A stretch of 59,312 nucleotides of DNA from Chitinophagales bacterium (GTDB lineage Bacteria; Bacteroidota; Bacteroidia; Chitinophagales; Saprospiraceae), in NCBI GenBank assembly GCA_013298955.1, contig JAAFJT010000018.1, forward strand, positions 1 through 59,312. Direction: 5' to 3'. Below, piece by piece: positions 20,705 to 31,501 of this stretch. Within the stretch, counting starts at the first letter, position 1; the number at the start of each line of letters is the position of its first letter. Under the pieces are notes generated by a model. It searched no databases, was not told where the DNA came from, and saw only the letters and a program-made list of their open reading frames with translations. The position numbers were made by a program, and so were the translations under genes.

Positions 20705-21823
20705 ATGAAGTACAATATTCGGGTTTATCAAGCGAAAAAATCTAATTTGTCGAAAGTGGATTTTAACAATATCCCTTTCGGACAAACGTATAGTGACCAC
20801 ATGTTCGTCGCCGATTATAAAGATGGACAATGGCAAAATTTGCAAATTCGCCCTTTAAGCCATTTGTCTTTTCACCCCGGATTGATGGCGTTGCATTATG
20901 GGCAGTCGTTTTTTGAAGGCATGAAGGCTTCTAAAACCAATGCGGGTGTCCCCATGTTGATGCGTCCCGAAATGCACGCGCAACGGATGAATCATTCTGC
21001 GGAACGCCTTTGCATGCCTGCGATTCCAGAGGCTCTTTTTGTTCAAGCCTTAGAAAAATTGGTGGCTTTGGATAAAAATTGGATTCCACAAACACCGGGT
21101 GCGGCGTTATATCTCCGTCCTTTTATGTTTGCGACCGATGAAACGTTGGGCGTGCGACCTTCTAATACGTATAAATTTATCATTTTGACGGGTCCCGTTG
21201 GTCCTTATTATGCCAAACCAGTCAAACTTTGGGTCGAACAAAAATATGTTCGGGCGGTTGCAGGCGGTACGGGAGAGGCGAAAGCGGCGGGCAATTATGC
21301 TGGTTCGCTCTATCCGATGAAGTTGGCGGCAGAACGCGGTTATGACCAAATCATCTGGACGGATGCATTTGAACATAAATATTTGCATGAAGCTGGGACA
21401 ATGAATTTGTTTTTCGTGATGGATGGAAAAGTAATTACGCCTTCTACGGATGGGGAAATTTTGAAAGGGATTACGCGGGATTGTTTTTTAAAAATTTTAA
21501 AAGCAAAAGGTATTCCACACGAAGTCAGACCTATACATATAGACGAATTAGTGCAATCGTATAAAAATGGCAAATTAGAAGCCGCTTTTGGGGCAGGTAC
21601 AGCAGCTGTTGTTTCGCCCGTATGCGAGATTACATATGGCGATTTTAAAATGACTGTGCCTGAAATGAAACCGAATAGTATTCCTGCGTTGTTGAAAGCC
21701 GAAATTGAAGGTTTGCGCAATGGCACGATTCCAGATACGTATGGCTGGATGCACCCGATTGAAACCGCAGCAGTTGTAACTGCGCCGAAAAAGAAAAAAG
21801 TATTGGTTTTAGAACCTGCGTAA
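20705..21823 (+). CDS. ilvE: Branched-chain amino acid aminotransferase
   Basis: This PLP enzyme interconverts leucine, isoleucine and valine with their 2-ketoacids, using glutamate/2-oxoglutarate. The 372-residue protein belongs to the longer, BCAT-type class IV aminotransferases. The Schiff-base lysine is K193 in GGTGEAKAAGNYAGS. Further signatures are YGQSFFEGMKA (65-75), LYLRPFMFATDETLGV, EAGTMNLFFVMDG and FGAGTAAVVSPV. No ilv biosynthesis cluster is adjacent, so synthesis versus degradation cannot be decided from context. Two palindromes follow the stop. Confidence 0.95.
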   Translation: MKYNIRVYQAKKSNLSKVDFNNIPFGQTYSDHMFVADYKDGQWQNLQIRPLSHLSFHPGLMALHYGQSFFEGMKASKTNAGVPMLMRPEMHAQRMNHSAERLCMPAIPEALFVQALEKLVALDKNWIPQTPGAALYLRPFMFATDETLGVRPSNTYKFIILTGPVGPYYAKPVKLWVEQKYVRAVAGGTGEAKAAGNYAGSLYPMKLAAERGYDQIIWTDAFEHKYLHEAGTMNLFFVMDGKVITPSTDGEILKGITRDCFLKILKAKGIPHEVRPIHIDELVQSYKNGKLEAAFGAGTAAVVSPVCEITYGDFKMTVPEMKPNSIPALLKAEIEGLRNGTIPDTYGWMHPIETAAVVTAPKKKKVLVLEPA

Positions 21824-22079: not shown

Positions 22080-24101
22080 TTACGCAAGTAACTCTGAGAA
22101 TTTTTTCTTCCCACGAATATAAAATTGAAAAACGGCTGAACCTTTATAAACGCCTCCAAAATTGGGCGCACCAATGCGATTCGCTTCAACAATCGCTGAT
22201 ACGGCTTTGCGTTTTTCAATCAATTTGAAAATATTTTTGTAAAACGAACCATGTGCCTGCACGATTGCCCAAGTCTGTTTCCATTGTTGTTTGAATAAAA
22301 ACCGAACTCCCACTACCCCATCCAACATCAATCGCAAGGGTAATAACCACATTAATTTCAAAACAGGTTCGTTTTTAAATAACAAATATAAATTATTCCG
22401 AAAATTCAAATACGTTTTTTTAGGATTTTCATACTCCAATGTCCCGCCGCCAACATGGAAAACAACGGAACGCGGCTCTACCATAATCTTATAACCTGCC
22501 CGCCGCATTCGCCAACATAAGTCAATTTCTTCTTGATGCGCCCAAAAATCGGCATCCAATCCGCCAAATTTTGCATACAAATCAGCCCGAATCACCATAG
22601 CCGCCCCACTCGCCCAAGCGATTTCAGACACGTCATCATATTGTTTTCGGTCTCTTTCCACCTTTTCAAACACCCGACCGCGACAAATCGGATAACCTAA
22701 CACATCAATCCATCCGCCAACCGCACCTGCATATTCAAAATATTTTCGTTTTTGATAAGCCCGAATTTTAGGTTGCACGGCAGCAATCGTATTATCGGAT
22801 TCCATCAATTCAATCAAAGGCAATAACCATTCTTTGCGCACTTCTACATCCGAATTTAATAAAACAAAGTATTTATACGTTTTTTCTTCCTGCAAACGCT
22901 CCAATGCTTTATTGTAACCTAATGCAAATCCATAATTTTCTTTTAAATCAATCGCCCGAATGCGCTGATGTCCATAATAATTGGGCAATCCATCCAAATT
23001 TTTTTCGAGGATAAAATCCATCGTCCCATCTGTTGAACCATTGTCTGCCACAATTACATCATAATTTGCATATTGCGCCGCCAAAACAAATGGTAAAAAT
23101 TTATCTAATAATTCTTTCCCATTATAATTCAAAATCACAACGCCCACTTTCGGAAACGATTGATTTTCAATCTCTTGCAAAATTTCCTTCGCAGATGTTT
23201 CATCATTCGCCAACTGAACCACCAAATCTTCTAACGATTCAAAATACTGGTCAGGACGTAAATATTCGACCAAATCCACTTTCAACGTCTCGCCATAAAT
23301 GTCTTTATCAAAATTAAAAATATTGACTTCAATCGTCACATTATGATAATTTTTCAATACAGGACGGTCTCCGCGATACATCATGCCCTTGTGTCGAATG
23401 CCTTTGTGCCAAACAAAAACAGCGTAAATCCCATGCGGCGGCACTAATTTATGCGGGTCACTGACCGAAATATTGGCAGTTGGAAAGCCAATGCCGCGCC
23501 CAATTTGTTGCCCTTTCACCACCGTACCCGTGAACGAATAATAATGCCCCGATAATTTTGCAGCAGTACCCACATCGCCGCGCTCCAGCGACTTGCGCAC
23601 CTGCGTAGAACTCACGGCAATATCGTCAATGACTTGTTTTTCGATTTCTTGCACTTCATAACCAAATTTTGTTTGGTTCATTTTCAAAAAATCAATATTT
23701 CCTGCGCGTTTAGCCCCAAAATGATGGTCATAACCAATGACAATATATTTAGGTTTGAAATATTTAACTAAGAATTGTTCGATATAATCCTCTGGAGATT
23801 GCTCCGAAAACGCCTTTGTAAAAGGCGCAACGACGACATAATCCATGCCTTGTTGTTCCAACAAAATGGTTTTTTCATCCGTCAAAGTCAACAATTTGAT
23901 GGGTGCAGCAACACCTTCCACGACCAAACGCGGGTGTGGATGAAAAGTAATGACCACAGAAGGGAGTTTCACCGCTTCCGCCAACGCCTTGACGCGTTTC
24001 AAGATAGATTGATGTCCTGTATGCACCCCGTCAAAAGAACCAATCGTAAGGACGGTATTTTTGAAATCAGGCAATTCGGATAGATTGTGAAATATTTTCA
24101 T
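22080..24101 (-). CDS. Fusion of bifunctional riboflavin kinase/FAD synthetase with a GT2 glycosyltransferase
   Basis: The 673-residue protein joins two complete enzymes. Residues 1-160 are the FAD synthetase (FMN adenylyltransferase) domain with TIGSFDGVHTGHQ (19-31). Residues about 185-308 are riboflavin kinase with GRGIGFPTAN (201-210). Together these make a normal RibF, converting riboflavin to FMN and FAD in the cytosol. From residue 318 a second domain starts like a stand-alone GT2 enzyme (PKVGVVILNYNG), with VADNGSTDGT, LLNSDVE (the DxD-type site), GAAMVIRADL and the acceptor-side HQEEIDLCWR. Length and order suit both families. The frame is continuous, and the junction codon for Q314 (CAA) is one transition from TAA. 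A TATTTTTG box lies eight bases before the ATG. The acceptor of the glycosyltransferase is unknown. Confidence 0.9.
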   Translation of the reverse strand: MKIFHNLSELPDFKNTVLTIGSFDGVHTGHQSILKRVKALAEAVKLPSVVITFHPHPRLVVEGVAAPIKLLTLTDEKTILLEQQGMDYVVVAPFTKAFSEQSPEDYIEQFLVKYFKPKYIVIGYDHHFGAKRAGNIDFLKMNQTKFGYEVQEIEKQVIDDIAVSSTQVRKSLERGDVGTAAKLSGHYYSFTGTVVKGQQIGRGIGFPTANISVSDPHKLVPPHGIYAVFVWHKGIRHKGMMYRGDRPVLKNYHNVTIEVNIFNFDKDIYGETLKVDLVEYLRPDQYFESLEDLVVQLANDETSAKEILQEIENQSFPKVGVVILNYNGKELLDKFLPFVLAAQYANYDVIVADNGSTDGTMDFILEKNLDGLPNYYGHQRIRAIDLKENYGFALGYNKALERLQEEKTYKYFVLLNSDVEVRKEWLLPLIELMESDNTIAAVQPKIRAYQKRKYFEYAGAVGGWIDVLGYPICRGRVFEKVERDRKQYDDVSEIAWASGAAMVIRADLYAKFGGLDADFWAHQEEIDLCWRMRRAGYKIMVEPRSVVFHVGGGTLEYENPKKTYLNFRNNLYLLFKNEPVLKLMWLLPLRLMLDGVVGVRFLFKQQWKQTWAIVQAHGSFYKNIFKLIEKRKAVSAIVEANRIGAPNFGGVYKGSAVFQFYIRGKKKFSELLA

Positions 24102-24330: not shown

Positions 24331-24960
24331 ATGCAATCCAATACACCATTTATTATAGGCGTGACAGGCGGTTCTGGCTCTGGCAAAACAACGCTGATTA
24401 AACAATTAAGGCAACTTTTTCCCGAAAACGCGCTTTGCGTGATTTCGCAGGACGAATATTACAAACCGCGCGACGAACAATGGGTCGATGCCAATGGATA
24501 TAAACATTTTGATTTGCCAACTTCTATTGATGATAAAGCATTTTTAAAAGATATTAAAAAATTATTAAAAGGCGAAATCATTGAAAAACAGGAATATGTG
24601 TTCAATAATCAGGATGCTACCCCTGTTATGAAATATTTTCGACCTGCGCCGATTATCGTTGTGGAAGGGCTTTTTGTGTTTCATTATCCTGCGATAAAGG
24701 CATTATTTAATTTGAAATTATTTGTTTTTGCGGAGGAAAATTTGAAAATCATTCGACGCATTCGCCGCGACCAAGTGGAGCGCGGATACCCGATAGAGGA
24801 TGTTTTATATCGATATGAACACCATATTGTGCCGAGTTATCAACAATTTATTGAACCGTATTTGAAAGAATCGGATTTGATTTTGAATAATAATAACAGT
24901 TTAACACCCAGTTTGAGCGTTTTAGTCGGTTATTTGAAAGATAAATTACGGGGCTTATGA
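24331..24960 (+). CDS. Uridine kinase family protein
   Basis: A 209-residue P-loop kinase of the uridine/phosphoribulokinase family. The Walker A is GVTGGSGSGKTTLI (10-23); then ISQDEYYKPRD, FDLPTSIDD and IIVVEGLFVFHYP follow the family order, and RRIRRDQVERGYPIEDVLYRYE is the lid region. Uridine kinases phosphorylate uridine and cytidine to UMP and CMP in pyrimidine salvage. The nucleoside specificity is inferred from family resemblance, so I leave the gene symbol empty. The stop codon abuts a long inverted repeat that separates it from the next gene. Confidence 0.87.
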   Translation: MQSNTPFIIGVTGGSGSGKTTLIKQLRQLFPENALCVISQDEYYKPRDEQWVDANGYKHFDLPTSIDDKAFLKDIKKLLKGEIIEKQEYVFNNQDATPVMKYFRPAPIIVVEGLFVFHYPAIKALFNLKLFVFAEENLKIIRRIRRDQVERGYPIEDVLYRYEHHIVPSYQQFIEPYLKESDLILNNNNSLTPSLSVLVGYLKDKLRGL

Positions 24961-29584: not shown

Positions 29585-31501
29585 ATGATTATGTCTAAAT
29601 CGAAACCAATCAAAAAACAAAAAGTTTCAATAACTGCGCCTGTCCTTGAAGACAAAAAAAACAATTCGTATGTTTTTCCCAATTGGCTGCCGATTGGTTT
29701 CGTGTTATTAGCAACTTTTCTGGTCTTTTTTCCAACCTTGCAAAATGATTTTGTCAATTGGGATGATGATGTCAATATCCTCCAAAACCGCGATTTGGAA
29801 GGCGCGTTGACTTTTGCAAAATGCAAAGATATTTTCACGCATACGATTATGGGCGGTTATAATCCGTTGTCTATTTTCACTTTTGCGCTTGAAAAAGCGG
29901 CTTTTGGCGTTGAAAATTGGTCAAAAGTGATTCATACTAACAATTTGTGTTTGCATTTAGGCGTTGTTTATTTGGTTTATCAGCTCGTTTTGATGTTGAA
30001 TTGGGATACTTGGACTGCCTTTTTTACGGCTCTTTTGTTTGGAATTCATCCAATGCGCGTAGAATCGGTCGCTTGGGCAACCGAAAGAAAGGATGTTTTA
30101 TTGGGCATTTTTTATTTTTTAGCGATTATTCAATATGTAAAGCATTTAAAATCAAATGATAATAAAAATTTAATTTTAACCTATCTTTTTTTCATACTCG
30201 CCCTTTTTTCAAAAATCCAAGCAGTTGCCTTGCCTTTGACACTATTGGTTTTTGATTATTACTTAGATAAAAATTTGAAAAAAGCGTTGATTCAAAAAAT
30301 ACCTTTTTTCTTAATTGCCTTATTTTGGGGCATTTCGAGTGTTTGGTTTTTAAAAGCCGCTAAAACCATTCAAATCGATAGTGAGATTGTAGCATTCAAT
30401 TTTTTGGAACGACTTGGCATTGCAGGATATGCGTATCTCATCTATTTGGTCAAATGGATTTATCCATATATTATGGCATGCGTGTATCCGTATCCTGCGA
30501 AAATACCGCCTTATTTTTATGTTGGTACCTTGTTAGGAATTGCGAGTATTGGTTTGATTTATCAACAATATTTAAAACAAAACAAACTAATTGTTTTTGG
30601 ATTCGTTTTTTTCATATTCAACTTTATGTTTGTTTCGCAAATTGTAGGCGCGGGACAAGCATTTTTGGCAGACCGTTTTACGTACATTGCTTATTTTGGC
30701 TTATTTTTAATGATGATAGGTTTTTTAAATCATTATAAAAAACAATATCAAATGATGGTCAATGGTTTGCTTAGTTTATACCTAATCATTTGTTGCACAA
30801 TGACTTATGCTCAAGTGCAGACTTGGAAAAATGGCGAAACCCTTTGGACACAAGCCATGAAATACGATTCAAAAACGAGTTTACCTTATGGCAATCGAGC
30901 GATTTATTACCGAGAAAAGAAAGATTTCAAGAAAGCATTGCCCGATTTTGACAAAGCAATTGCGTTATCAGGCAAAGCAGGAACGTTGAATAGTCGAGGT
31001 AAAACCTATTTTGATATGGGACAAAATGATAAAGCGATTGCCGATTACAACGTTGCTTTATCGAAAGATACGACGATTGGTGAGATTTGGGTGAATCGCG
31101 CCGCCGCATTCGGAAAAGCGGGACAGTATGAAGCCGCTTTATCGGATGCGAATAAGGGATTGCGTTTAGACAACAAATTATTGAATGGTTATGGGATGCG
31201 TTCCTTGATTTATCAGTCTATGGGCAATTTTGAGGCGGCACTTGCTGATAATGCCACTTATTTGCAATTGAAACCTGATGATGCCGATACTTGGTTTGAT
31301 TCAGGCATTTTGAGCAGGCAATTGAAACAAGATGTTGTGGCACTGGGACATTTCACGAAAGCAATTGGGTTGAACCCACAAAAAGGCGAATATTATTTGG
31401 AACGAGCGAAATTATATGCGGTTATGGGGAATGTGGAAGCTAAAAATCAAGATATTTTAGTGGCGAAATCAAGAGGATTGGTGATACCGACTGGTTTATA
31501 A
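29585..31501 (+). CDS. Polytopic membrane protein with TPR tail, TMTC-like
   Basis: A 638-residue protein. The N-terminal 420 residues contain about ten membrane helices and motifs of the GT-C type TMTC group: NDFVNWDDDVNI (an acidic loop after the first helix) and FGIHPMRVESVAWATERKDV. From about 435 the protein has tandem tetratricopeptide repeats of 34 residues (YGNRAIYYREKKDFKKALPD, then LNSRGKTYFDMGQNDKAIAD, and further copies). The loops probably face the periplasm. TMTC relatives are O-mannosyltransferases in animals, but in bacteria their acceptors are unknown; glycosyl transfer is inferred. It follows the SDR gene by ten bases. Confidence 0.8.
   Translation: MIMSKSKPIKKQKVSITAPVLEDKKNNSYVFPNWLPIGFVLLATFLVFFPTLQNDFVNWDDDVNILQNRDLEGALTFAKCKDIFTHTIMGGYNPLSIFTFALEKAAFGVENWSKVIHTNNLCLHLGVVYLVYQLVLMLNWDTWTAFFTALLFGIHPMRVESVAWATERKDVLLGIFYFLAIIQYVKHLKSNDNKNLILTYLFFILALFSKIQAVALPLTLLVFDYYLDKNLKKALIQKIPFFLIALFWGISSVWFLKAAKTIQIDSEIVAFNFLERLGIAGYAYLIYLVKWIYPYIMACVYPYPAKIPPYFYVGTLLGIASIGLIYQQYLKQNKLIVFGFVFFIFNFMFVSQIVGAGQAFLADRFTYIAYFGLFLMMIGFLNHYKKQYQMMVNGLLSLYLIICCTMTYAQVQTWKNGETLWTQAMKYDSKTSLPYGNRAIYYREKKDFKKALPDFDKAIALSGKAGTLNSRGKTYFDMGQNDKAIADYNVALSKDTTIGEIWVNRAAAFGKAGQYEAALSDANKGLRLDNKLLNGYGMRSLIYQSMGNFEAALADNATYLQLKPDDADTWFDSGILSRQLKQDVVALGHFTKAIGLNPQKGEYYLERAKLYAVMGNVEAKNQDILVAKSRGLVIPTGL

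Follow-up and report, generated by a model that had tools for sequence, protein, structure and literature searches.

The locus described here raises the question of why a gene for riboflavin kinase/FAD synthetase (RibF) should run on, in frame, into a GT2 glycosyltransferase. It has to be asked whether this is a real gene, whether it makes one protein, and whether the joint says anything about the chemistry of the two halves. The gene was found in a window, i.e. the whole stretch of DNA analysed, of 59,312 nucleotides from a genome of the Saprospiraceae (Bacteroidota; Bacteroidia; Chitinophagales). Family, order, class and phylum refer below to those of this genome. In a tree, RibF sequences from other families of the order are interspersed with those of named Segetibacter and Taibaiella, in keeping with Chitinophagales as the order.

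RibF and GT2 in one open frame

The gene is encoded on the minus strand at positions 22080-24101, with its ATG at 24101 and its stop at 22082-22080, and its product is 673 amino acids long. In brief, residues 14-166 (23604-24062) form the FAD synthetase (FMN adenylyltransferase) domain (Pfam PF06574, FAD_syn, 6.4e-49), with conserved motif residues, and residues 185-308 (23178-23549) the riboflavin kinase domain (PF01687, Flavokinase, 4e-38). The junction QEIENQSF, residues 309-316, is encoded at 23154-23177. Residues 317-673 (22083-23153) make up the GT2 half, in which PF00535, Glycos_transf_2, matches at 321-455 (2.4e-18). All of these lie on the minus strand. Both halves are thus found by Pfam in one open frame of 673 codons, as the preliminary description of the locus had proposed. 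A class IV aminotransferase gene (20705-21823) lies downstream and a uridine kinase-like gene (24331-24960) upstream, both on the other strand.

The first half is a bifunctional RibF. The NCBIfam models TIGR00083 (residues 17-308) and NF004160 (residues 7-311) both match above their cut-offs. In enzymes of this type, FDGxHxGH-type and SST-type motifs mark the N-terminal nucleotidyltransferase domain, and a PTAN motif and a catalytic Glu mark the C-terminal flavokinase domain; both domains are present here with these motifs. Among 65 fused sequences, G21, D24, H27, H30 and S165 of RibF and T208, A209, N210 and E258 of the flavokinase are invariant; P207 is present in 62 and changed in three, and the position of G29 is occupied by A in seven. 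Residues 1-308 resemble the bifunctional RibF entries PDB 1mrz and 2x0k in domains, domain order, motifs and length (sequence match to 1mrz, E 1.5e-40). The PDB chains listed match the RibF half alone, whereas here a whole GT2 follows in frame.

A profile search of the genome gave a single flavokinase match, the fusion protein itself. The same holds for the family, where 116 of the 120 genomes that are at least 90% complete have exactly one flavokinase; none was found in the other four (G014, G028, G163 and G075). In these 116 genomes the single flavokinase is part of an open frame of 654-732 amino acids in 89 cases and of a short frame in 27. In most sampled family members, an enzyme of an essential pathway exists in a single copy, and this copy is joined to another whole enzyme that serves an unrelated process.

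GT2 enzymes carry a D-x-D-type motif followed downstream by an E-D motif. The second half has, besides the PF00535 match, N416-x-D418, E524, E525 and D527, and these residues are invariant in all 65 fused sequences, as are D353, N354 and D358. The NCBIfam glycosyltransferase models all score far below their own cut-offs on this half, and neither Pfam nor NCBIfam gave a match with a flavin-related role in it. The next GT2 match shown in the same genome is 28% identical. The individual conserved residues of RibF and GT2 would have the roles known from their families, and because the motif residues are invariant in the 65 fused sequences, we expect both enzymes to be active.

The most hydrophobic 19-residue stretch of the protein begins at residue 581 and has a mean hydropathy of 1.46; the same maximum has a median of 1.59 across 109 GT2 sequences. 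A value of 1.6 is commonly taken as the mark of a membrane-spanning helix. The stretch, being below this mark, is compatible with membrane contact of the GT2 but no proof of it. An AlphaFold model from one job with eight sequences had a mean pLDDT of 62.3. Much of the RibF half is fair, but in the GT2 half approximately every second residue scores below 50. A predicted helix at 290-315 runs into a strand at 319-325, and with these scores the model is too poor to place the domains relative to each other.

Fused and split states in the family

In 143 of 150 family genomes we found a match at E 1e-60 or better; seven had no match at that threshold. The match is single and approximately full-length in 113 genomes. 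It is uninterrupted in 111 of these, and in the other two (G023 and G152, loci L009 and L119) it contains one TAA at the junction. The fusion is genuine and far beyond chance. Its presence in 111 of the 150 genomes also answers a concern raised when the locus was first described, that relatives might always have two genes and this assembly alone a frameshift.

The genome is a draft of 204 contigs, which on its face allows for an assembly or sequencing artefact, or for a pseudogene in decay. Against this stand the same frame throughout the family, a relative of the same genus (G001) that is 61% identical over residues 1-672, the invariant motif residues and the lack of any other flavokinase match in the genome. 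We reject this explanation, to which we give next to no probability.

The remaining 32 family genomes with a match inform about how the two halves came together. In 28 of them ribF and the GT2 gene are adjacent on the same strand, which supports the proposal that two neighbouring genes merged. In 23 split genomes at most 232 bases separate the ribF stop from the aligned GT2 on the same strand. The two genes are likewise adjacent on one strand in G143, G110 and G141, with ribF truncated by the contig end in the last. Of the others, G122 (locus L105) has 1.4 kb between ribF and GT2 with a 375-amino-acid frame on the opposite strand, apparently an insertion into the pair. The two genes are on separate contigs in G099, no GT2 match was found within the stretch fetched around ribF in G079, and G163 has one match and no flavokinase. 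Both halves could be placed in 142 family genomes, and in 139 of these they are linked, being either fused (111) or directly adjacent (28).

In several split genomes the stop of ribF and the start of GT2 touch or overlap. We read 27 borders of adjacent pairs; in 24 the two genes are in different frames, and in three (G022, G023 and G152) they are in the same frame. One genus (g17) holds both states, with G017 fused and G146 split. For ribF and GT2 the family thus offers a natural series that runs from fused genes through overlapping and spaced ones to separated ones. By eye, short tandem-like repeats are seen in the spacer between ribF and GT2 at loci L098 (G137) and L106 (G160), hinting at how spacers may grow.

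The codon for Q314 is indeed CAA at 23162-23160, one of the features noted initially. Being one transition away from TAA, it had been taken to suggest that a stop between two genes was lost, and this part we do not uphold. The matching codon in G001 is also CAA, and the fusion therefore predates the split between G001 and the genome of the window, which leaves the codon as no firm sign of a lost stop. The variable linkers and the 24 of 27 split borders that are out of frame also speak against this reading of the codon. In the 65 fused genes the linker, measured between the equivalents of residues 306 and 321, is 10-24 residues long (median 20) and shows little likeness from gene to gene.

Such variable linkers would also suit a gene that gives two proteins, with the GT2 freed by an internal start or by cleavage. 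Eight of the 65 linkers contain an ATG and 30 contain any of ATG, GTG or TTG. In the window, the junction itself (309-316) has none of these codons but is flanked by TTG at 308 and GTG at 319. On the other hand, 57 of the 65 linkers are without an ATG, and only 8 of 1208 linker codons are ATG where approximately 16 are predicted from the codon use of the genes themselves. Across the 65 linkers we found no conserved start codon from which a free GT2 could be made, and since ATG is under-represented there, a start codon kept for this purpose is unlikely. We consider it rather unlikely that two proteins are made.

The history of the two states was analyzed with a FastTree phylogeny of both halves, comprising 65 fused, 26 split, one separated and 16 outgroup sequences. 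Counting the separated sequence as split, the tree requires eight state changes, compared to a mean of 23 in 200 shuffles of the labels; a quick IQ-TREE analysis gave 11. On the FastTree phylogeny, 12 changes are needed if only fusions are allowed and nine if only fissions are allowed. Under a two-state model, a fused ancestor followed by losses scores slightly better (lnL -31.4) than a split ancestor (lnL -33.3), a difference that is not decisive. A single fused clade has a log-likelihood 72.7 lower and is not rejected by the AU test (p 0.159). We take these results to mean that the state probably changed more than once, while the AU test allows for one fused clade.

GT2 outside the family

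Full-length matches appear confined to the family. In a sample of the order (n=248), all 57 listed full-length matches come from it; five further family genomes and 16 genomes of other families were listed without one, and 170 genomes without a match were counted, not listed individually. One genome of another family in the order (G188) passed the threshold through the GT2 alone. All five full-length matches in a sample of the phylum (n=395) are from the family as well, with 370 genomes without a match not itemised. No relative of the fusion was found in viral contigs.

The GT2 itself is widespread. In a sample of the class (n=90), at least 82 of the 89 other genomes have a free GT2 match that is 43-54% identical to the fused GT2 half and of similar length. 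In contrast to the fused GT2, this orthologue is encoded away from ribF. Among the matches listed, 64 genomes have both genes, and the GT2 adjoins ribF in none of them: the pair is on different contigs in 58, where a contig break could in principle conceal neighbours, and approximately 45 kb or more apart on one contig in six. From these matches, the GT2 appears to be a separate, free-standing gene in the class outside the family. Long open frames hinted at other fusions in three class genomes (G764, G766 and G376), but the stretches showed separate genes.

At two loci outside the family the genes are looser neighbors. At locus L033 (714-6014, in a record titled Sphingobacteriaceae) ribF and GT2 point the same way with 3.3 kb between them, and the intervening genes include one for a GWxTD protein and one that by eye is leucine-rich-repeat-like. 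At L074 the distance is approximately 9.6 kb, with GT2 upstream.

The preliminary description knew of no metabolic reason for joining the two enzymes and offered either simple co-expression or a glycosyltransferase that depends on a flavin-linked or FAD-coupled process. For flavin-linked sugar transfer we found no support. If the activities were coupled, the GT2 might use or modify a flavin (flavin glycosylation), or locally made FMN or FAD might feed a flavoenzyme of the same envelope pathway. Selection for such a link is conceivable given that the linkage is so well kept in the family. However, it is not seen in any of the 64 class pairs listed, full-length matches in the order and phylum samples all belong to the family, split and fused states occur side by side in one genus, and the GT2 half gave no flavin-role match. 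Coupling of the two activities is in our opinion very improbable.

The neighborhoods of the separate genes give a clue to the function of the GT2. Neighboring genes were identified by running Pfam on a single member of each cluster; the GWxTD gene of L158 was named by likeness. In many of the loci read outside the family, ribF comes after uppP (BacA) and truB, and ftsX and a DUF3098 gene often lie further upstream. The GT2 adjoins a GWxTD-domain gene at L033 (3339-6014), L064, L152 and L158 (2587-5070), and is one gene away from such a gene at L063 and L150. It adjoins a lipid A acyltransferase-like gene at L063, L068 and L150. These neighbors, from few outgroup loci, suggest an envelope role for the GT2. 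A literature search on GWxTD found no paper. At many family loci the GT2 is followed by a pseudouridine synthase gene, and ribF is preceded by a gene of the NUBPL/Mrp type.

Origin and meaning of the fusion

We suggest that the gene probably makes a single RibF-GT2 polypeptide, the product of two merged neighbors, in which each half keeps its usual job and the two share no chemistry. In an ancestor of the family, the GT2 gene would have arrived immediately 3' of ribF, in the same orientation. A short or overlapping border between them may then have become one frame, either once with later re-separations or several times. The RibF half would synthesize FMN and FAD as usual. The GT2 half would transfer a sugar onto a glycolipid or polysaccharide precursor of the envelope on the cytoplasmic side of the inner membrane. 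Fusion would bring co-expression and may place RibF at the membrane, without any shared chemistry.

Retention of the fusion in 111 genomes across the family exceeds what one would readily expect of a neutral accident, and some benefit of being fused is therefore possible. We speculate, with considerable doubt, that it is kept because a membrane-contacting tail of the GT2 tethers flavin synthesis at the inner membrane, beside some flavin-requiring step in envelope assembly or respiratory assembly. If this were true, the family would possess a membrane-tethered FMN/FAD synthase.

Henry et al. (2016, PMC4921024) have collected fusions in riboflavin biosynthesis; they describe the two activities of RibF as highly prone to be fused with each other and, for further partners, refer to a figure and to supplementary tables. 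The text of that paper makes no mention, in the parts available, of a fusion of RibF with a glycosyltransferase, which the figure or the supplementary tables may list. A literature search of partial coverage found no paper on a RibF-GT2 fusion. As an apparent merger of unrelated neighbors, the fusion is a warning against reading every fused gene as a functional link (Rosetta-stone inference). It also draws attention to the GT2 that is found class-wide.

Elsewhere in the window, positions 29585-31501 on the plus strand encode a 638-amino-acid protein that by eye has a hydrophobic N-terminal half, with TPR repeats in the C-terminal half.
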